From Streptomyces toxytricini (GTDB taxonomy: Bacteria > Actinomycetota > Actinomycetes > Streptomycetales > Streptomycetaceae): a stretch of DNA of 64,000 nt. Every line of letters starts with the position of its first letter. Position 1 is the stretch's first letter. The notes beneath the pieces are model-generated. The model made no database searches, was not told where the DNA came from, and was given only the letters and a program-made list of their open reading frames with translations. Below are positions 25,354 to 63,161 of this stretch, in pieces. The stretch spans positions 62,001 through 126,000 of the forward strand of contig NZ_BMTY01000021.1 in NCBI RefSeq assembly GCF_014649915.1, read 5' to 3'. A program made the position numbers and the translations under genes.

Positions 25354-26688
25354 ATGACCCTGACGACGCTGCTGATCGCGCTGCTGCTGCTCACCGCCCG
25401 CGCGGCGGCCCCGGGCCCGCCGGGGGCGGCGGACGCCCGCGAGGCCGCCCGCGCGCCCGCGCGTGCGCCGGGGGCAGTGCGGTCCGGCGCGGCGCCGGCC
25501 GGGACGGTGCGGCCGCTGCCGGGGGCGGTGCGGCCGCTGCCGGGGGCGGTGCGGCCGCTGCCGGGTCCGCTGGCGGTGGCCCGCTGGTGGGACCCGCCGC
25601 CGACCCCGTACGCGGCCGGGCACCGGGGGGTGGACCTGGCGGCCCCTGCGGGAGTGCGGGTGCGGGCGGTGGGCCCGGGGCGGGTGCACCACGCGGGGCC
25701 GGTCGCCGGGCGCGGGGTGCTGTCGCTCACCCTGCCGGGCGGCCTGCGCACCACGTACGAGCCGGTGCGGCCGCTCGTCGCGGAGGGGGAGGCCGTCGCC
25801 GCCGGGCAGGTCGTCGCCGTCCTGGAGGCGGGCGGCCACTGCGGGGCGCGGCCCTGCCTGCACTGGGGCCTGCTCGCGGGCGGGGAGTACCTCAACCCGC
25901 TCGGCCTGCTCCCGCGGCCGTCGCCGCGGCTGCTGCCGGCCGCGGGAGCGGCGCTCAGCCCCGGACGCCCCGCAGGGCCATCGCGACGGCCGTCTCGGTC
26001 ACCACGGCCGGGTCCTCGGCCGCGCCCAGCTCGATGCGGCGCACCGCCGCGTCGACGACGCCCTGGAGCAGCATCGCCGCCAGCTTCGGCTCCTCCTGGC
26101 CCAGCGCGGCCAGCGCCTCCACGATCAGCGCGACGAGCCCGCCGTGCGCGGCGCGGATCTTCTCCCGGGCGCCCGCGTCCAGCTCGCTCGCCGAGATCGC
26201 CACCACAGCCCGGTGGCGCCGGTCCCCGACGAGGCCGAGCTGGCTGCGCACGTAGGCCTCGATCTTGGCCTCGGGCGTGGCGGCCCGCTCCATGGCCGCC
26301 TCGATCTCCGCGGCCCAGACGGGGAAGTCCACCGCGCACAGCTCCTCGACGACGGCGGCGCGGGAGCGGAAGTACTCGTAGACGGAGGACCGGGCCAGGC
26401 CGGTCCGCTCCGCCAGGGCGGGGAAGGTCAGGGCCTCGGTCCCGCCTTCGGACAGCAGGGAGCGCGCCGCGTCCAACAGGGCGCCGCGCTGCATCGACCG
26501 GTGCTCGGCCACGGAGGCCGCTCGAATCCTGGGCACCCGTCCACTGTACGGAGGTACCGGCGGGTCAGCGCCCCACATCGGCCAGCTTTGCGCGCAGTTG
26601 CAGCACCGACTTGGTGTGGATCTGGCTGACGCGGCTCTCGGTGACGCCGAGGACGTTGCCGATCTCGGCCAGGGTCAGGCCCTCGTAG
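25354..26688 (+). CDS. Secreted M23-family peptidase, open frame runs on antisense to tetR
   Basis: The recognisable protein is about 205 residues: a signal sequence [19 protein letters not shown], a Pro-rich linker with three 7-residue repeats, then a LytM/M23 domain from [16 protein letters not shown] to [15 protein letters not shown]. The HxxxD and HWG metal-ligand patterns are present, so it may cleave peptidoglycan crosslinks. No stop codon occurs where the domain ends (about 25955). The frame stays open to 26688, adding some 240 Arg/Pro-rich residues that are antisense to tetR. The real C-terminus, or a sequence error there, cannot be decided from the window. Confidence 0.6.
25505..25567 (+). 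repeat. Three tandem 21-bp repeats in the M23 gene
   Basis: Three nearly identical 21-bp units, containing CGGTGCGGCCGCTGCCGGG, encode the linker repeats VRPLPGA between signal peptide and catalytic domain. Confidence 0.85.
25955..26536 (-). CDS. TetR family transcriptional regulator
   Basis: A 193-residue regulator. The N-terminal DNA-binding domain spans residues 17-65, with [18 protein letters not shown] and the helix-turn-helix [19 protein letters not shown]. The C-terminal ligand domain is not specific enough to name an inducer. The start is set at the GTG at 26536 ([14 protein letters not shown]); an in-frame start at 26578 would overlap whiG. It lies 28 bp after whiG on the same strand and is entirely antisense to the extended M23 frame. 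Confidence 0.85.
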
Positions 26689-27610: not shown

Positions 27611-29935
27611 TCACGGACCGCCTCGCCGTTCGCCACCGGTTCGTGTGCCTTCCCGGCGTGTCCTCTTGGCCAACCGCCAGGCGTCGCCCAGCCGTTCGAC
27701 GAACCCCAGAGAGTGAAGTTCGTACAGTCTGCCGATGACTTCATCGGTGCCGGTCCCCGCGGCGAGGGCGATGTCGCCGGCCTGCGCCGGCCCTGCGGCC
27801 GGCAGGGCGTCCAGCACCCGCGCGGTGTCCGGGTCCAGCAGGTCGCGGGCGAGGACCGGCCCGCGCCGTTCGGGCGCCAGCTCCCCCATGCCGCCGACGA
27901 GTTCGACGACCTCGGCCGCGTCGGTGACGAGCACCGCCTCCCCGCGCAGCAGCTCGTGCACCCCGGCCGACAGCGCGCTGGTGGCGGGCCCGGGGACGCC
28001 CATGGTGAACCGGCCCAGCTGCCGGGCCCGGCGGGCGGTGACCAGCGATCCGCTGCGGTAGGCCGCCTCGACCACGACGGTGCCGCGGGTCAGGGCGGCG
28101 ATGACCCGGTTGCGCAGCACGAACCGGGCCGGCGTCGGGTGGCTGCCGGGCGGCAGCTCGCCCAGCACCAGCCCCTGTCCGGCGATGGCGCCGAGCAGCC
28201 CGGCGTGGCCCCGCGGGTACGCGGTGTCGACCCCGCAGGCCAGGACCGCGGCCGTCGCCCCGCCGGCCCCGAGCGCACCGCGGTGTGCGGCGCCGTCGAC
28301 CCCGTACGCGGCCCCCGACACCACGACCCAGCCGCGCTCGGCGAGCCCGGCGGCCAGGGTGTGCGCCATGTGCGCCCCGTACGGGGTGCAGGCCCGCGCC
28401 CCGACGAGGGCGACGGAGCGCAGCGCCCAGGTCCGCAGGTCGGGGGTGCCCCGCACCCACAGGCCGACGGGTCTGGCGTCACCGAGGTCGTCGAGCTGGG
28501 TGGGCCACTGCGGGGTGCCGGGGCAGAGGAACCGGCAGCCCAGCTCGGCCGCCCGGTCCAGGTCGGCGCGGGGATCGGCCTGGGCGGCCCTCAGCCGGTA
28601 TCCGGCGACCCGCTGCCGCCCCGCCCCGGCCAGCTCCGGGGGCTCGGGGTCGGCCCCGGTGAGCATCCGCATCAGCCCGGCGGCCCCGTACTCGCGCAGC
28701 CACCGTCCCCCGTGCACGTCCCCCGGCTCCAGCACCCGCGTCAACGCAACCCGCGCAAGCAGCTCCTCCTCGTTCCCCCGGAGCGCGCCTTCCACTTCGG
28801 CCGGGGCTCGCCCCTCCGCCCCGGGACCACCGGGCGCCCCGAAGCCGGCCACCCGCTCGGGCCCCCGGCCCTGCGGCGACTCCGCACCCGCCCCCGACCC
28901 GAAGCCAGGGCCGTGCGGCCCCAAGCCCGCCACCGGCTCGCGACCGGTGCCGTGCAGCGGCCCCGAGCCCGCCGCCGGCTCGGGACCGGAGCCGTTCGGC
29001 TGGTCGACTCCGGGCATCGGCTCGGAGTCAGGGCCCTGCTGCTCCCCCGCTCCGTGCAGCAGCGGCTCGGAGCCGGAGCCGTCCGGCGGTCCGGAGCCCA
29101 TCACCGCCCCGGAACCGGGGCCATGCGGCCGCCCCGCTTCGGACATCGGCTCGCGACCAGGGCCCTGCGACGGTCCGGAGCCGGTCACCGGCTCGCGACC
29201 GGGGCCGCGCTGGTCGACGCCAGGGCCCTGCGGCGGCCCGCAGCCAGGCCCGTGCGGCGGCCCTGAGCCTGCCGCCGGCTCGGAACCGGAGCCACGGCCA
29301 ACTTCGGGCATCGGCCCGGAATCAGGGCTTTGCGGCGGCCCGTTACCGAGACCATGCGGGGCCCCGGAGCCCGCCACCGCCCCGGAGCCAGGGCCATGCG
29401 GCTGCCCCACTCCGGACAGCGGCTCGCAACCAGGACCGTGCGGCGGCCCGAAGCCCGCCACCTGCCCGGAGCCTGAGCCGTGCGGCGGCCCGGAACCCGC
29501 CATCAGCTCGGGGCCGCGGCGCTGTGGCGGCCCGGAACCCGTCACCGGACCGGAGCCAGGGCCATGCGGCTGCCCCACTCCGGACAGCGGCTCGCAACCA
29601 GGACCGTGCGGCGGCCCGGAGCCGGCGCCCTGCCGCTGCCCCGCTTCGGGCAGCGGCTCGGCGCCAGGACCGTGCGGCGGCCTGAAGCCCGCCACCTGCC
29701 CGCGACCGGGGTCGTGCGGCTGGTCGACTCCGGGCATCGGCTCGCAACCGGGACCCTGCGGCGGCCCGGAGCCCGTCACCGGCCTCGGATTGGGGCCGTG
29801 CGGTCGCCGGGAGCCCGTCGTCGGCCCGGCGCCGCGGCCGTGCGGTGATGCGGAGTCCGGCGCCGCCCGCCCCGGACCGGGGCCGTGCGGCTGCCCGGAG
29901 TCCGGCAGCGGTTCGGGAGTGGGGGGCGGGGTCAT
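27611..29935 (-). CDS. dprA: DNA-processing protein DprA with long N-terminal repeat domain
   Basis: DprA binds single-stranded DNA and loads RecA during uptake or repair of incoming DNA. The conserved 389-residue protein (about residues 386-774) has ARACTPYGAHMAHTLA, the Rossmann-type SGAAYGVDGAAHRGAL, PRGHAGLL and FVLRNRVIAALTRGTVV, then a C-terminal winged helix. It is preceded by about 370 residues of 14-residue Gly/Pro repeats (28835-29890). The frame is continuous, and the ATG at 29935 overlaps the comM stop as ATGA, so the extension is expected to be translated. An internal start near the conserved domain cannot be excluded. Confidence 0.88.
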   Translation of the reverse strand: MTPPPTPEPLPDSGQPHGPGPGRAAPDSASPHGRGAGPTTGSRRPHGPNPRPVTGSGPPQGPGCEPMPGVDQPHDPGRGQVAGFRPPHGPGAEPLPEAGQRQGAGSGPPHGPGCEPLSGVGQPHGPGSGPVTGSGPPQRRGPELMAGSGPPHGSGSGQVAGFGPPHGPGCEPLSGVGQPHGPGSGAVAGSGAPHGLGNGPPQSPDSGPMPEVGRGSGSEPAAGSGPPHGPGCGPPQGPGVDQRGPGREPVTGSGPSQGPGREPMSEAGRPHGPGSGAVMGSGPPDGSGSEPLLHGAGEQQGPDSEPMPGVDQPNGSGPEPAAGSGPLHGTGREPVAGLGPHGPGFGSGAGAESPQGRGPERVAGFGAPGGPGAEGRAPAEVEGALRGNEEELLARVALTRVLEPGDVHGGRWLREYGAAGLMRMLTGADPEPPELAGAGRQRVAGYRLRAAQADPRADLDRAAELGCRFLCPGTPQWPTQLDDLGDARPVGLWVRGTPDLRTWALRSVALVGARACTPYGAHMAHTLAAGLAERGWVVVSGAAYGVDGAAHRGALGAGGATAAVLACGVDTAYPRGHAGLLGAIAGQGLVLGELPPGSHPTPARFVLRNRVIAALTRGTVVVEAAYRSGSLVTARRARQLGRFTMGVPGPATSALSAGVHELLRGEAVLVTDAAEVVELVGGMGELAPERRGPVLARDLLDPDTARVLDALPAAGPAQAGDIALAAGTGTDEVIGRLYELHSLGFVERLGDAWRLAKRTRREGTRTGGERRGGP
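28835..29890 (-). repeat. Coding minisatellite, about 27 copies of a 42-bp unit in dprA
   Basis: Most units encode 14 residues of the form PHGPGxxPxxGxGP; a few are 8, 12, 13 or 15 residues. Copies at 29382-29450 and 29550-29618 are identical over about 69 bp at an offset of exactly 168 bp, or four units. That points to recent duplication. Confidence 0.93.
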
Positions 29936-31563
29936 GCGGTGGCTCCTGCCGTGAGGGCGCCGCGGGCGACGCCGGTGCGGAGTTCCAGGGCGACGGCCAC
30001 GTCCAGGGCGTCCGGGTGGTCGTTGCCCCGCAGGTCGGCCACGGTCCAGGCGACCCGGAGCACCCGGTCGAGCCCGCGGGCGGTGAGGAGGCCGCGCTCC
30101 AGATCGCGCTCGGCCTGGGCGAGCGCGCCGGGGGCGGCCGGCCAGCGGGTGCGGAGCTCGTGTCCGGGAACCTCGGCGTTGAGCCGCCACGGCGTCCCGG
30201 CGAGCCGGGCCGCGGCGCGCTCCCTGGCCTGGAGGACCCGGGCGGCGACGACAGCCGTCGGCTCGCCGCGGCTGCCGGGCCGGGCCAGGTCGCGGCGGCC
30301 GACCGGCTCGACCTCCACCCGCAGGTCCACCCGGTCCAGCAGCGGCCCCGACAGCCGGGCCTGGTACCGCCGCACCACCGAGGCGGGGCATTCGCAGCCC
30401 GCGCCGTACAGCCCGTGCCGCCCGCAGGGGCAGGGGTTGGCGGCGAGGACCATCAGGAAGCGGGCCGGCAGCTGGACCACCCCGGCGGCCCGGGCGATGA
30501 CCACCCGCCCGGACTCCAGGGGCTGGCGCAGCGCGTCCAGCGCCTTCGCACTGAACTCGGCGGCTTCGTCCAGGAAGAGGATTCCGCGGTGTGCCAGCGA
30601 GACGGCCCCCGGCCGCGGCACCCCGGCCCCGCCGCCGACGAGGGACTGCATGGTGGCGGAGTGGTGCGGCGCGCAGTACGGGGCGCGGGTGACGAGGGGG
30701 TCCCCCGGCGGGAGGATCCCGGCGACCGAGTGGACGGCGGTCACCTCCAGGGAGTCCTGCCGGGTGAGCGGCGGCAGGATGCCCTGCATCCGTTCGGCGA
30801 GCATCGTCTTGCCCGCGCCCGGCGGCCCGCTCAGGAACAGGTGGTGCCCTCCGGAGGCGGCGACCTCCAGGGCCCGGCGGGCCGCCTGCTGCCCGGCCAC
30901 ATCGGCCAGGTCCGGCAGATCGCCCGGGCCGCCCTCCGCCGGCCGGCCGGACAGGACCCCGGTGCCCAGGCCCGCGCCGGGCACCAGCAGCGCCGAGGGC
31001 CCCGGGCCGGGCGGCCCTGCCTCCTCCTCGGGCTCGGCGGCCGCCCCGTCGGCGCCGGTGAGCACCGCGATCAGCCGGCGCAGGCTGCCGACGCCGAGCA
31101 CCGACACCCCGGGCACCAGCTCCGCCTCGGCGGCGCAGCCCCGCGGCACGACGACGTGGCGGTGGCCGGCCTCCGCGGCGGCGAGCACCGCCGGGAGGAT
31201 GCCGGGCACCGGCCGGACCCGGCCGTCCAGTCCCAGCTCCCCGATCAGGACCAGGTCGGCGATGACCGCCGGGTCGACCACCTCCGCGGCTCCGAGCACC
31301 GCTGCCGCGACGGCGAGGTCGAATCCCGAGCCGCCCTTGGGGACGGAGGCAGGGCTGAGCCCGACCGTGAGCTTCTTCTGCGGCCAGGCGGCGCCGGAGT
31401 TGGCGACCGCGGCCCGCACCCGGTCCCGGCTCTCGACCAGGGTCTTGTCGGGCAGCCCCACCAGGGTGAAGGCCGCCACGCCCGGTTCGAGGTCGGCCTG
31501 GACCTCCACGACCACGCCCTCGACGCCGACGAGGGCCACCGAGCAGGCTCGCGCGAATCCCAT
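29932..31563 (-). CDS. comM: ComM/YifB family AAA+ ATPase (Mg-chelatase-like)
   Basis: A 543-residue protein with an N-terminal Lon-like domain (KLTVGLSPASVPKGGSGFDL), then an AAA+ module. Walker A is GPPGAGKTM, Walker B ILFLDEAAEF, and the zinc-like cluster reads NPCPCGRHG with CECPASVVRRYQ. ComM is a helicase that aids branch migration during integration of foreign DNA. The start ATG at 31563 overlaps the yraN stop and its own stop overlaps dprA, both as ATGA, so yraN-comM-dprA is a tightly coupled operon. Confidence 0.92.
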   Translation of the reverse strand: MGFARACSVALVGVEGVVVEVQADLEPGVAAFTLVGLPDKTLVESRDRVRAAVANSGAAWPQKKLTVGLSPASVPKGGSGFDLAVAAAVLGAAEVVDPAVIADLVLIGELGLDGRVRPVPGILPAVLAAAEAGHRHVVVPRGCAAEAELVPGVSVLGVGSLRRLIAVLTGADGAAAEPEEEAGPPGPGPSALLVPGAGLGTGVLSGRPAEGGPGDLPDLADVAGQQAARRALEVAASGGHHLFLSGPPGAGKTMLAERMQGILPPLTRQDSLEVTAVHSVAGILPPGDPLVTRAPYCAPHHSATMQSLVGGGAGVPRPGAVSLAHRGILFLDEAAEFSAKALDALRQPLESGRVVIARAAGVVQLPARFLMVLAANPCPCGRHGLYGAGCECPASVVRRYQARLSGPLLDRVDLRVEVEPVGRRDLARPGSRGEPTAVVAARVLQARERAAARLAGTPWRLNAEVPGHELRTRWPAAPGALAQAERDLERGLLTARGLDRVLRVAWTVADLRGNDHPDALDVAVALELRTGVARGALTAGATA

Positions 31564-32945: not shown

Positions 32946-33732
32946 CGGCCGCCGCCTTCCGGCGGGCGAGCACCCGCGCCAGGGGCCCGTACGCGCACCC
33001 GAGCAGGACGAGCGCGGCACCGGCCGCGGCCGCGGCCAGCTGGATCCGCAGAGGCCCGGGCCGCGAGGTCCCGCCGGGCAGGTCCGCGTACGCCGCGGGC
33101 CGGCCGACCATGGTCGCGGAGGGCCAGGCGAGGGCGTCGACGCGGCCCCGAACCGCGGAGCGCGGCACGGTCCCCTGCCCGGCCTCCTGGAGGTGTGCCC
33201 GCGAGTCGAGGGAGGCGGAGCGGCGGTCGCCCAGGAGGAAGAGGTTCCCCTCGGGGACGGTCACCTCGAAGGGGGTCTGCGACGCGGGCCGCAGCCCGTT
33301 CGCGGCGGCACCGGGGTCGTCGAGGTCGGCGTACGGCTCGTCGAGCTCGCGGCCGTTGAGGGTGAGCCGCCCGCCCGCGCCGCAGCACTTCACGGTGTCG
33401 CCGCCGACGCCGACGACCCGCTTGACCATGGGCGAGTCGGCCCATCGGGTGTCGGTGAAGACGACCACGTCGCCCCGGCGGACCTCGGCGCCGTCGATCC
33501 GCTGGGCGAGGACCCGGTCGCCCGGCCTGACGGTCGGGACCATCGAGTCGGTCGGCACCGTGAAGGGCTGGTAGACCACGGCCCCCCACACGAAGGCGCC
33601 CAGGAAGAGCACGAAGCCGACGGCGACGGCGATGCCCGACAGGACGCTGCCGGCACCACGGCGGCCGCCTCCGCTCCCGCGTGCTCCCTGCGTGCTGCCG
33701 TCCTGCGTTCTGCTGTCCTGCGTTCCGCCCAT
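32935..33732 (-). CDS. sipZ: Type I signal peptidase, fourth gene of the cluster (SipZ-like)
   Basis: A 265-residue membrane peptidase that removes signal peptides outside the membrane. An N-terminal helix spans about residues 32-54, the catalytic Ser is in VPTDSM and the catalytic Lys in MVKRVVGVGGD. The box GDRRSASLDSR replaces the usual GDHRxxSxDSR, so His is missing there. A second helix near the C-terminus ([20 protein letters not shown]) gives two anchors. Last of four tandem signal peptidase genes; the name follows S. coelicolor order. Confidence 0.9.
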   Translation of the reverse strand: MGGTQDSRTQDGSTQGARGSGGGRRGAGSVLSGIAVAVGFVLFLGAFVWGAVVYQPFTVPTDSMVPTVRPGDRVLAQRIDGAEVRRGDVVVFTDTRWADSPMVKRVVGVGGDTVKCCGAGGRLTLNGRELDEPYADLDDPGAAANGLRPASQTPFEVTVPEGNLFLLGDRRSASLDSRAHLQEAGQGTVPRSAVRGRVDALAWPSATMVGRPAAYADLPGGTSRPGPLRIQLAAAAAGAALVLLGCAYGPLARVLARRKAAAGAR

Positions 33733-58934: not shown

Positions 58935-61900
58935 TCAGCGGAGCCGCTGGCTGATCACCTTCGAGACGCCGTCGCCCTGCATGGAGACGCCGTAGAGGGC
59001 GTCGGCGACCTCCATCGTGCGCTTCTGGTGCGTGATGACGATCAGCTGCGAGCTCTCCTGGAGCTCCTCCATGATCCTGATCAGCCGCTGGAGGTTGGTG
59101 TCGTCGAGCGCCGCCTCGACCTCGTCCATCACGTAGAACGGGCTCGGCCGGGCCTTGAAGATCGACACCAGGAGGGCGACGGCGGTCAGCGACCGCTCCC
59201 CGCCCGACAGCAGCGACAGCCGCTTGACCTTCTTGCCCGGCGGGCGGGCCTCGACGTCGACCCCCGTGGCGAGCATGTCGTCCGGGTCGGTGAGCACCAG
59301 TCGGCCCTCGCCGCCGGGGAAGAGCCGCGCGAAGACGCCCTCGAACTCGCGTGCCGTGTCGTGGTAGGCCTCGGTGAAGACCTGCTCGACCCGCCGGTCG
59401 ACCTCCTTGACGACCTGGAGGAGGTCGGAACGGGTCCGGCGGAGGTCCTCCAGCTGCTCGCTCAGGAACTTGTGCCGCTCCTCCAGGGCCGCGAACTCCT
59501 CCAGCGCCAGCGGGTTGACCTTGCCGAGCTGCTGATAGGCGCGCTCGGCGGCCTTCAGCCGCTTCTCCTGCTCGGCGCGCACGAAGCGGCCGGGCCGGTT
59601 GCGGGGGTGCTCCGGGTCCTCGGGGAGCGCCTCGCCCTCCGCGGGCGGGCTCGGCGGGACCGGCTGGTCGGGCCCGTACTCGGCGGTGAGCGACTCGGCG
59701 CCCATGCCGAACTCCTCCAGGGCCCGGGCCTCCACCTGTTCGATCCGCAGCCGCTTCTCGGCGCCGAGAACCTCCCCGCGGTGCACGGAGTCGGTGAGCT
59801 TGTCCAGCTCCGCCTTCAGGTCGCGGCCGCGGGTGCGGGCTTCGCCGAGCTCGCGTTCGCGCACGGCCTTGGCCTCCTCGGCGGCCGCACGCTCCTCCTG
59901 GGCGCGGCCGAGGGAGACCTCGATGTGCGCGAGCAGCTGGCGGGCGCCGTCGGCGACGGCGCGGGCGACCCCGGCCTCCCGGCGCAGCCGCTCGCGGCGG
60001 GCCGCGGCCCGGGCCCGCGCCTCGCGTTCGGCGCGGGCGCCCCGGTCGAGGGCGTCGGCCCGGCCGGCCAGGGCCTTGACCCGCTCCTCGTGGGTACGCA
60101 GCTGCAGGCGCGCCTCCATCTCGGTCTGGCGGGCGTTGGCCCCGTCGGCGGCGAGCCGGTCGCGCACGGCGGTGTCGGGCTCCTCCTCGGCTTCGCCGTG
60201 GCTCTCCTCGGCGGCGGCCAGCCGTTCGGCGCATTCCTGGGCCTCCGCCAGCGCCTCCTCCAGCGCGGCCCGCGCCTTCTCGGCGGCGGCGGCGCTGCGC
60301 TCGGCCTCGCCGGAGGCGCCCTTCGCCTGGCCGGCGAGCCGGCCGAGCTGCTGGGCCGTTCCGGCCCGGGCCTGCTCGGCGGCCCGGCGCCGCTCCCCGA
60401 GTTCCTCGACGCGGGCGGCGCAGACCCGGCGGTGCTCCCGCGCGGCCTCCTGGGCGGCGGCCAGCTCCCGGCACTGCCCGTCCAAGCGGTCGAGCTCGGC
60501 CGCGGCCTCGTCGACGGCGGCCTGCACCTCGATGAGGCTGGGCGCACCGGCGGACCCGCCGTGCGCGAGGTGCGCCGCGAGCACGTCCCCGTCCCGGGTC
60601 ACGGCCACCGCGTCGGGCCGCGCCGCAAGGAGCGCCTCGGCCTCGCCGAGATCGGCGACGACGTAGTGCCCGTGCAACACCCGGGCGACGGCCCGCACGA
60701 GCCCGGCGTCCCCGTGTACGAGCCCCCCGGCGGGCGTCCCGAACAGCGCGTCCGCGCCCAGCGGGCCGCCTTCGGCTGCGGAATCCCAGCCCCCGGTGCC
60801 GGCCCCCGCGACATCGGCCGCCGAGGCCGCAGCGCCCTCGGGAGCGACCGCGGTGACGTGACGTCCGCCCGGAGCGACTGGAGCCGCCGGCACACCCGCG
60901 GCTTCGCCGACGGCCGGGAACCCGGGCGCGGCAGGGGAGCCCCCGCAGGCGGCAGGGTCGCCGGCCCGGCGGCCGGCCGACGCGGGCGGGCCCGCCGGGA
61001 CAGCCGGGGAATCGGGTGCGGCCGGCCCGGCCGGACCCCCTTCGAGCATGGCAGCGGCACTTGCCTGGCCTCCGCCGGACAGGGTCGGCCCCGCCGGGGA
61101 GCCTTGGAACTCCTGGGGGGCGGGAACGGCCGCGGCACCTGCGGCGGTCGCAGGGTCGCCGGCTTGGCGGCCGGCCGGCACGGTCGGGCCCGCCCCGACG
61201 GCCGCACATACGGCAGCGGCCGGTGCGCCCTCGGCAGCGGCCGGGACCCCGGCTTGGCCACCGGTCGGCACGGTCGGGCCCGCCCCGACGGCCGGAGATC
61301 CGGGGGCGGCCGGGGCAGCCGGGGAGGTCCCAGGGTCGCCGGCCCGGCGGCCGGCCGGCACGGTGGGGGCGGCCGAAGGGTTCTGTTCGGGGGCTGGGAG
61401 CCGGTCCCCGGCGGGAGACGGGAGCGCGGGCCGGCCGGGTACGGCCGGGGCCGTGATCAAAAACGAGGCGCGGCCTGCGTCCGTGGCGCGCAGGTGGCGG
61501 ATGGCTCGGGCCGCTGCGGAGGGGGAGTCCGCCGCCAGGGCGTCGGCCGAGGCGCCGAGGGCCGCCGCCACCGCGGCTTCCCAGCCGGGGGCCACCGTGA
61601 GGCGTTCCGCGGCCGGGCCGAGCAGGCCGGTCAGCCGGTCGCGGGCGGCCAGGGCCGCGCCGGTGCCGTCCTTGCGGCGCAGGCCCAGGGCGAGGGCGTC
61701 CCGCCGGGCCGCGACCGCCGCGCGGGAGCGTTCCGCGGCCGTCGCCGCGTCCCGGGCCGCGGCGAGCGCCGCCTCCGCCTCCGCGAGCTCCGCCTTCGCG
61801 GCCTCGTGCTCGCCGTCGGCCGAGGGCTCCTCCAGCCCGCCGACCTCCTCGGCCAGGGCCTCGTACTCCTCCTGCGCGGCATGCGCCCGCTGCCGGGCCG

Positions 61901-63161
61901 CGTCGCGCGCGGCGGCCAGCCGGTCGGCCTCCGCCTGGGCGGCCCCGGCCCGCGAGCGGGCGGCGCCGAGCCGCCCGGTCAGCCGGGCCAGGCCCTCGCG
62001 CCGGTCGGCGATGGCCCGCGCGGCGTCGCGCAGCCGCCGCTCCTCCTCGGCGAGGGCCCGCTCCAGTTCGGCACGGTGCGCGGAGGTGTCCTCCAGGGCC
62101 CGCGAGGCCGCCTCCAGCGCCGCCGCCAGCTCCGCCTCCTGTTCGCGGATGCGGGCGGCCTCGCGCTCCATGTCCTCCGGGTCGCGGCCCCGCCGCTCCT
62201 CCTCCTCCTGCGGCGCGGACGCCGACCGGACGCGGGCGTCGGCCAGGGAGGCCGTCCCGCGGACCCGCTCGGCCAGCTGCGACAGCTCGTACCAGGTCTG
62301 CTGGGCGCGCTGCAGCCGCGGAGCCAGGCAGCGCACGGCCTCCTCCAGCTCCGCCTCCCGGCGGACGGCGTCGGCGAGCTGCGCCTCGGCGGCGTCCTTG
62401 CGCTCCTTCAGCGCGGCCTCGTCGGCGAGCTCGGCCTGCAGCGCGGCCCGCAGTGCCACCAGGTCGTCCGCGAGGAGGCGCAGCCGGGCGTCGCGCAGGT
62501 CGGCCTGGATGACGGCGGCTCGGCGGGCGACGGCGGCCTGCCGCCCCAGCGGCTTGAGCTGCCGGCGCAGCTCCTCGGTGAGGTCCTGCACGCGGGAGAG
62601 GTTGGCCTGCATCGCGTCGAGCTTCCGCAGCGCCTTCTCCTTGCGCTTGCGGTGCTTGAGGACGCCGGCCGCCTCCTCGATGAACGCGCGGCGCCCCATC
62701 GGGTCGGCGTGCAGGACGGAGTCCAGCTGGCCCTGCCCGACGATGACGTGCATCTCGCGGCCGATGCCGGAGTCGGAGAGCAGCTCCTGGATGTCGAGGA
62801 GGCGGCAGGTGTCGCCGTTGATCTGGTATTCGCTGCTGCCCCCGCGGAACATGATCCGCGTGATGGTGACCTCGGCGTACTCGATGGGCAGGGCGCCGTC
62901 GGAGTTGTCGATGGTCAGCGAGACCTCGGCCCGCCCGAGCGGCGGGCGGCCGGTCGTCCCGGCGAAGATGACGTCCTCCATCTTCCCGCCGCGCAGCGAC
63001 TTCGCGCCCTGCTCGCCCATGACCCAGGACAGCGCGTCCACCACGTTCGACTTGCCGGACCCGTTGGGGCCCACCACGCAGGTGATGCCCGGCTCGAAGC
63101 GCAGGGTGGTCGCGGACGCGAACGACTTGAAGCCGCGCAGGGTCAGGGACTTGAGGTGCAC
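58935..63161 (-). CDS. smc: Chromosome segregation protein SMC with enlarged hinge
   Basis: A 1408-residue condensin ATPase that organises and segregates the chromosome. It starts MHLKSLTLRGFKSF, with Walker A VVGPNGSGKSN at about residues 31-40. Two long coiled coils flank a hinge (about residues 500-860). The C-terminal head holds LSLLSGGERSLTAVALL and Walker B FYVMDEVEAALDD. Streptomyces SMC is usually near 1190 residues. The excess of roughly 225 sits in the hinge at about residues 574-800 as a Gly/Pro/Ala repeat insert. The frame is intact throughout. ScpA and ScpB are not in this window. Confidence 0.95.
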   Translation of the reverse strand: MHLKSLTLRGFKSFASATTLRFEPGITCVVGPNGSGKSNVVDALSWVMGEQGAKSLRGGKMEDVIFAGTTGRPPLGRAEVSLTIDNSDGALPIEYAEVTITRIMFRGGSSEYQINGDTCRLLDIQELLSDSGIGREMHVIVGQGQLDSVLHADPMGRRAFIEEAAGVLKHRKRKEKALRKLDAMQANLSRVQDLTEELRRQLKPLGRQAAVARRAAVIQADLRDARLRLLADDLVALRAALQAELADEAALKERKDAAEAQLADAVRREAELEEAVRCLAPRLQRAQQTWYELSQLAERVRGTASLADARVRSASAPQEEEERRGRDPEDMEREAARIREQEAELAAALEAASRALEDTSAHRAELERALAEEERRLRDAARAIADRREGLARLTGRLGAARSRAGAAQAEADRLAAARDAARQRAHAAQEEYEALAEEVGGLEEPSADGEHEAAKAELAEAEAALAAARDAATAAERSRAAVAARRDALALGLRRKDGTGAALAARDRLTGLLGPAAERLTVAPGWEAAVAAALGASADALAADSPSAAARAIRHLRATDAGRASFLITAPAVPGRPALPSPAGDRLPAPEQNPSAAPTVPAGRRAGDPGTSPAAPAAPGSPAVGAGPTVPTGGQAGVPAAAEGAPAAAVCAAVGAGPTVPAGRQAGDPATAAGAAAVPAPQEFQGSPAGPTLSGGGQASAAAMLEGGPAGPAAPDSPAVPAGPPASAGRRAGDPAACGGSPAAPGFPAVGEAAGVPAAPVAPGGRHVTAVAPEGAAASAADVAGAGTGGWDSAAEGGPLGADALFGTPAGGLVHGDAGLVRAVARVLHGHYVVADLGEAEALLAARPDAVAVTRDGDVLAAHLAHGGSAGAPSLIEVQAAVDEAAAELDRLDGQCRELAAAQEAAREHRRVCAARVEELGERRRAAEQARAGTAQQLGRLAGQAKGASGEAERSAAAAEKARAALEEALAEAQECAERLAAAEESHGEAEEEPDTAVRDRLAADGANARQTEMEARLQLRTHEERVKALAGRADALDRGARAEREARARAAARRERLRREAGVARAVADGARQLLAHIEVSLGRAQEERAAAEEAKAVRERELGEARTRGRDLKAELDKLTDSVHRGEVLGAEKRLRIEQVEARALEEFGMGAESLTAEYGPDQPVPPSPPAEGEALPEDPEHPRNRPGRFVRAEQEKRLKAAERAYQQLGKVNPLALEEFAALEERHKFLSEQLEDLRRTRSDLLQVVKEVDRRVEQVFTEAYHDTAREFEGVFARLFPGGEGRLVLTDPDDMLATGVDVEARPPGKKVKRLSLLSGGERSLTAVALLVSIFKARPSPFYVMDEVEAALDDTNLQRLIRIMEELQESSQLIVITHQKRTMEVADALYGVSMQGDGVSKVISQRLR
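60760..61440 (-). repeat. Repeat insert inside the SMC hinge
   Basis: About five imperfect 30-33-residue units are built on PTVPAGRRAGDP and are separated by Ala/Pro/Gly filler. They lie between ASFLITAPAVPG and GADALFGTPAGG, which are hinge sequence. At the DNA level a 28-bp string at about 61176-61203 recurs at about 61268-61295. Confidence 0.88.

Follow-up and report, generated by a model that had tools for sequence, protein, structure and literature searches.

A coding repeat array, probably translated, at the 5' end of dprA in Streptomyces toxytricini, and the variable DprA tails of its relatives

Introduction

How does a conserved recombination protein come to carry an N-terminal segment that changes in length much faster than its own core or the neighbouring ComM? 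The question is raised by dprA of Streptomyces toxytricini, where a frame that begins at the end of comM runs through several hundred Gly/Pro-rich residues before the usual protein begins. The gene lies in the window analysed here, a stretch of 64,000 nucleotides of contig NZ_BMTY01000021.1 (positions 62,001 to 126,000 of the forward strand), to which all coordinates below refer.

The domains of Deinococcus DprA and the effect of losing its N-domain have been described (PMC7314969, in the part available), and L-forms of Kitasatospora have been found to take up DNA, in a report whose available text does not contain the word dprA (PMC9500057). What DprA does in Streptomyces seems to have received little study and, judged by title, none of the matches listed by the literature search studies it. 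Nor was any report of DprA repeat tails found in the literature searched, which comprised titles and the openings of abstracts, mostly outside subscription journals.

Results

A conserved core behind a long tail

The first-pass annotation had read an ATG overlapping the comM stop, and a frame unbroken from there into a DprA otherwise normal in length. Both statements hold: the frame is open from 29935 to 27611 for 774 residues, 378 of them Gly/Pro-rich and ahead of the core, and the body of the protein is about 379 residues long (Table 1). Residues 464-671 match PF02481 at 203 bits against a cut-off of 29.6, and TIGR00732 is matched at 191.7 bits, just over its cut-off of 191.15.

Table 1. Features of the comM-dprA locus of S. 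toxytricini (window coordinates)
Feature	Position	Strand	Evidence
dprA, open frame, 774 codons + stop	27611..29935	-	PF02481, E 4.2e-60; TIGR00732
C-terminal part taken as winged helix, residues 700-755	27671..27838	-	pLDDT blocks 80-95; phmmer to 3maj
Rossmann-like DprA domain, residues 464-671	27923..28546	-	PF02481; phmmer to 3maj and 3uqz
N-terminal helical part of core, residues 379-464, taken as SAM-like domain	28544..28801	-	AlphaFold helices
Possible internal GTG start, residue 381, beside core	28793..28795	-	duplex energy -6.9
N-terminal DprA tail, residues 1-378	28802..29935	-	translation; AlphaFold pLDDT blocks
Array of 14-residue (42-nt) units, 22 whole, residue 2 to residue 367	28835..29932	-	profile placement; Tandem Repeats Finder
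Possible internal GTG start, residue 362	28850..28852	-	duplex energy -8.6
Exact 69-bp repeat, copy A	29382..29450	-	identity comparison
Exact 69-bp repeat, copy B, 168 bp from copy A	29550..29618	-	identity comparison
ATGA overlap of dprA start and comM stop	29932..29935	-	read from sequence
comM, 543 codons, directly upstream of dprA	29932..31563	-	PF01078, PF13541, PF13335
AGGAG, Shine-Dalgarno for the 29935 start	29943..29947	-	sequence; duplex energy -7.5

In phmmer, core residues 54-373 align to 3maj, and a Foldseek search with the modelled core also placed 3maj at the top (E 4e-11), but with a TM-score of about 0.2; since the Rossmann part of the AlphaFold core is poorly modelled (pLDDT below 50), the latter result is not taken as structural proof. 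The helical part is modelled with pLDDT blocks of 78-95 over residues 391 to 470, and the name SAM for residues 379-464 is carried over, without a model match, from the DprA architecture in the available part of PMC7314969. Overall, the core appears conserved and presumably does the usual work of DprA. In this core, and in its place directly downstream of comM, the protein is like other members of the DprA (Smf) family (TIGR00732, PF02481), such as R. palustris 3maj and S. pneumoniae 3uqz, and it departs from them in having a repeat tail of 378 residues where a short tail is usual (the median start-to-core distance in 171 Streptomyces loci is 21 residues).

Structure of the repeat array

The tail (27% Gly, 22% Pro) is built of 14-residue units with the consensus PHGPGSEPVAGSGP. 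An iterated 14-residue profile placed 22 whole units in the tail; in 200 shuffles it found 0.3 on average and never more than 2. The first of the 22 has a low profile score, and the spacing is exactly 14 residues in 15 of the 21 intervals. The array announced by the first-pass annotation is thus real, but its 'about 27 copies' comes from dividing the length by 14, and 22 whole units with fragments and register shifts is the more exact description. Tandem Repeats Finder gave periods of 42, 66 and 84 in the array and, on the cut-out tail alone, minor rows of 24, 29, 129 and 150 as well; the unit lengths 42, 66 and 84 and the lag of 24 are divisible by three, and the 29-nt minor row is not. Identity at lag 42 is 0.558, compared with a top value of 0.416 among 1000 codon shuffles (lags 9-297, in steps of 3).

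The two blocks 168 bp apart are indeed identical over 69 bp, which is the longest exact repeat in the array; a second exact pair measures 28 bp, with its members 720 bp apart, and the units differ from one another. The further claim that the array is young and expanding by four-unit steps is not supported. Most of it is diverged, with DNA identity at lag 42 of about 56%, and because exact agreement covers 69 of the 168 bp of one step, a recent clean four-unit duplication is unlikely, and the pattern is better explained by a partial exchange or by an older duplication. The likeness to collagen, likewise suggested at first, is ruled out by a longest GXY run of 4 triplets and by Gly fractions of 0.26, 0.25 and 0.30 in the three phases.

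The array occurs once in the genome and sits inside a 157-kb contig of a 53-contig draft; a second genomic copy was considered and rejected, the four further matches being short (61-119 bp) and 71-77% identical. A search of plasmids gave matches of at most 47% coverage and below 60% identity. AlphaFold models the tail at pLDDT 36-53 (10-residue blocks) with zero secondary structure, which is weak evidence of disorder because the Rossmann part scores as low.

Tail length across Streptomyces

Loci came from a scan of contigs (80 of 329 relatives), from 61 genomes and from 392 genomes of the genus, 388 of them with a match. After 2 of 137 had been dropped, 135 loci including that of S. toxytricini were measured, together with 59 of 60 further stretches, these 60 being drawn non-randomly, roughly by score, from the genomes with a match; removal of 23 that shared the first 300 core bases with another left 171 distinct loci. 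Three loci (L069, L114 and L144) were left out because a comM match was absent beside dprA. Distance runs from the -4 codon, which overlaps the stop of comM, to core residue 14, and was taken for intact and broken frames alike. The species are related, so counts of loci are non-independent throughout.

The pre-core length differs greatly between species: over the 171 comM-dprA loci, broken junctions included, it ranges from 4 to 391 residues, with a median of 21 and a 95th percentile of 118. S. toxytricini holds the maximum, and the next clean in-frame tail (L094) has 138 residues. Two loci at 179 residues contain stops, and an apparent 147-residue tail (L079 and L146) holds an N and, by eye, sequence resembling antisense comM, and is probably an assembly error. 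At the other end of the range, 44 of the 135 loci have distances of 4-10 residues. The flanks are far steadier: ComM measures 537-549 residues (5-95%, largest 573) in the 72 of 135 loci whose alignment reaches its start, and the DprA body 373-386 residues (5-95%, n=135).

Close relatives differ as well. At about 96% identity of core DNA, tails measure 128 and 51 residues in one pair and 85 and 21 in another, and a pair at 94% has tails of 37 and 92. Equal lengths, mostly of short tails, occur in 29 of the 124 pairs whose core identity reaches 88%, and the differing tails of close pairs have, by eye, at most a few end residues in common. In a tree of DprA cores (60 of 117 distinct rows) S. toxytricini stands beside a row with a 39-residue tail, at 99% SH-aLRT by a quick method. 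The front end of dprA therefore changes fast among the Streptomyces examined, and S. toxytricini is the extreme case in the sample. DNA alignment to 12 relatives' tails, with 100 shuffles each, gave no clear ancestor of the unit: ten were no better than z 2, and the tails of L118 (z 3.4) and L049 (z 4.2) align to it above all 100 shuffles.

The gene itself is disturbed in a few genomes. In a near relative with 86% core identity (L144, G158:C1), dprA matches only from about core residue 97 and the 4.4 kb examined around it are without comM, a 5' truncation or rearrangement. In G027:C1, dprA appears split by about 13 kb (1540334-1541116 and 1554160-1554504), and in 4 of the 392 genus genomes, with four candidates scored per genome, a dprA match is absent. 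The split gene and these four genomes suggest that dprA may be dispensable.

Are the tails translated?

For S. toxytricini itself, the frame of dprA is also open upstream within comM, for 926 residues from 30391, so that an upstream stop does not fix the start; 29935 was chosen on account of the ATGA overlap, the AGGAG and the pattern in relatives. The DprA frame of the tail is free of stops, and the two remaining forward frames contain 5 and 3. Three in-frame codons have better duplex energies than 29935 (-7.5), namely GTG 28852 (-8.6), ATG 29146 (-7.9) and TTG 28924 (-7.8); random core positions have a mean of -5.3 and a lower quartile of -7.1, and the overlapping starts of relatives a median of -8.4. 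Because internal in-frame starts score well, the tail could be skipped or be present in only part of the DprA. Translation from 29935, the reading first proposed, is nevertheless the best one and probable, though unproven, given the overlap, the AGGAG, the lack of stops and the behaviour of relatives.

That behaviour provides a natural comparison of in-frame with broken junctions, which can reveal translation from sequence alone. Among junctions of at least 30 codons, 59 of 72 are in frame, stop-free and begin at -4 (L079 included; p 3e-17 against one third). A start at -4 is found in 169 of the 171 loci, which is partly automatic because any base other than C in front of TGA yields a start codon. 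Of the in-frame tails with 30 residues or more, 6 of 58 have a start near the core (ATG, GTG or TTG, 7-12 residues before core residue 14), and of the broken junctions 15 of 17 do (p 3e-9); this start is ATG in none of the six in-frame cases and in 9 of the 15 broken ones. S. toxytricini, with its near-core GTG, belongs to the six. Here L079 is left out, as it is from the composition counts below, and L083 and L139 are left out of the broken set, their frame being open and a start at -4 absent. Among in-frame tails of at least 60 residues, 11 of 27 have no start codon 5-40 residues before core residue 14; any DprA produced from these loci would therefore include some of the tail. At -4 the Shine-Dalgarno energy averages -9.2 in long in-frame tails (58), -8.2 in short tails (72) and -7.0 at broken junctions (17). 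Taken with the repeat periods described below, frame and start-codon contrast make it likely that in-frame tails are translated as a class.

Repeats, composition and constraint

Tandem repeats are enriched in the tails of relatives, and these carry repeats other than the S. toxytricini unit. Among tails of 100 nt or longer, 46 of 67 (45 of 66 without S. toxytricini) reach a tandem repeat score of at least 40, as do 117 of 1340 control segments (Fisher p 3e-30), and a score of at least 100 is reached by 18 of 67 and 13 of 1340 (Fisher 2e-17); the control segments are matched in length and drawn from the same loci, and they include conserved genes intolerant of repeats. All 36 in-frame tails that bear repeats have a best period divisible by three, as do 5 of the 10 broken ones (p 2e-4), and repeats in an earlier control set also favour multiples of three (75 of 103). 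It follows that duplications of other lengths arise at the junction, and that they are never the best period of a continuous tail in this sample.

Within the array, selection on the unit sequence appears slight. The difference between units at lag 42 is 0.37, 0.37 and 0.38 by codon position, the major-base frequency is 0.78, 0.78 and 0.76, and pN/pS between units is 0.92 over eight lags; the even positions and this ratio point to little, perhaps not zero, selection. At several other lags the third position is the most variable (0.32, 0.34 and 0.44 at lag 276, for instance), a hint of weak constraint on the peptide. GC3 is 0.83 in the tail, 0.92 in the core and 0.95 in comM. Lys+Arg amount to 5% of the S. 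toxytricini tail, 10% of 57 other in-frame tails (at least 30 residues) and 23-26% of the other forward frames, and Asp+Glu to 8.5%, 14% and 2-4%, respectively. Together, these values would suit a tail that is near-neutral, disordered and loosely limited in composition.

Discussion

A probable origin and its alternatives

We consider it probable that the 5' end of dprA holds a coding minisatellite that is translated, and that recurrent duplication at the junction grows a probably disordered and nearly neutral tail. Where comM meets dprA, in GC-rich sequence, slippage or unequal exchange would duplicate short segments again and again. Duplications by multiples of three would lengthen the tail and leave the start at the codon overlapping the comM stop, and those of other lengths would be removed, or bypassed through a start codon beside the core. 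The sequence of the tail would then drift almost freely, filtered by frame, by the absence of stops and by a Gly/Pro-rich, Arg-poor composition.

It is unlikely, on present evidence, that the tail is instead maintained for a selected function, as a long, slightly acidic Pro/Gly chain that tunes self-association, holds DprA away from DNA or draws it into condensates with SSB or RecA. Its composition is bounded (Lys+Arg 5% and Asp+Glu 8.5%, against 23-26% Lys+Arg in other forward frames), third positions are slightly more variable at several lags, and DprA tails can hold conserved elements, as the motif of a second genus shows in five of six proteins (see below); however, the tails of close Streptomyces are often without visible similarity by eye, 44 of 135 loci make do with 4-10 residues before the core, and units diverge at a pN/pS of 0.92. 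Quite unlikely, too, is a tail that is mostly untranslated, with DprA starting internally (for example at GTG 28795 or 28852) and the array serving as an in-frame spacer. The 29935 start overlaps comM, has an AGGAG and is followed by no in-frame stop, and 52 of the 58 in-frame loci lack a near-core start, with ATG in none of the other six; what speaks for internal initiation is that three in-frame codons outscore 29935 and that, of 17 other loci whose junction is out of frame or stopped, 15 have a near-core start.

Two further explanations are highly improbable. An assembly artefact or an inactivated gene might be suspected in a draft of 53 contigs, as repeats are prone to mis-assembly and dprA is truncated in one relative and apparently split in another, but exact repeats reach at most 69 bp, the units differ, the array lies within a 157-kb contig, and the core agrees with the family and with relatives along its whole length. 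A role at the level of DNA or of the antisense strand, for instance through a 624-codon open frame on the plus strand (28080-29954), could draw on the nearly equal major-base frequencies across codon positions and on an antisense frame that is open and has the lowest pN/pS of the six frames (0.76). Long antisense frames are, however, usual in high-GC DNA, many standing among the open frames of this window, and the tails of relatives bear other repeats. Moreover, the third positions of the antisense and DprA frames coincide, so that the low antisense ratio is no separate signal; an antisense gene was rejected.

Beyond the near-neutral minisatellite, one might imagine a genus-wide evolvable hotspot, in which duplication at the junction keeps remaking a disordered tail, and the length and charge of this tail tune DprA self-association or its contact with SSB or RecA, so that related Streptomyces would differ in recombination or in the uptake of foreign DNA. 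We regard this as doubtful. If it were true, no case would be stronger than that of S. toxytricini, and a second genus, with its motif-bearing tails, would show a fixed version of the device.

Relation to known coding repeats and to tails in a second genus

That coding tandem repeats can create disorder is already known; the present repeat is real and extreme, and it is the place that is unexpected and recurrent. In Borg elements, according to the available text of PMC9879509, every coding repeat has a unit length that is a multiple of three, and the repeats give rise to disordered regions. The dprA repeats resemble these archaeal repeats in unit lengths divisible by three and in independent origins, and perhaps in making new disordered regions. 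The Borg repeats are, as far as that text describes them, mostly perfect, A-rich and extrachromosomal, whereas those of dprA are diverged, GC-rich, chromosomal and recurrent at one end of a gene; near-perfect units of the Borg kind are not found in the array, where lag-42 identity is 56%. Prokaryotic proteins have low-complexity regions in which Pro, Gly and Ala are enriched and the codons GGC and CCG are prevalent, and slippage is discussed as a possible cause (PMC6821194, in the part available). The same part stresses conserved, role-bearing regions, unlike the dprA tails, which vary in length and have little sequence conservation. The ends of tetrapod proteins have been described as hotspots of low complexity (available text of PMC11285758). 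In this setting, the dprA tails could be a simple system in which to follow the birth of disordered tails and to ask whether such tails matter.

The first-pass annotation had also held that such a tail would be new for DprA. For a tail of this length among the Streptomyces examined this stands, but a second genus of the same order has apparently independent tails of up to 346 residues. Eight of its 10 genomes had a close DprA match, and six proteins were read from their likely ATG: five (L205, L206, L208, L210 and L213) have tails of 176-346 residues with 2-5 copies of a SLLAPxSLFYA-like motif, and the sixth has a 53-residue tail from which the motif is absent. The motif is possibly a binding motif. 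An element that is repeated and common to several species suggests that DprA tails may become functional.

Repeat growth in the window is not confined to dprA, as an SMC-like protein (by eye; 1408 residues, 58935-63161, reverse strand) has a Gly/Pro/Ala repeat insert mid-protein, at 61127-61368, with a period of 90 nt. Short tandem repeats also lie at 33687-33729 and 25501-25565, near the N-termini of frames that look, by eye, signal-peptidase-like and peptidase-like.
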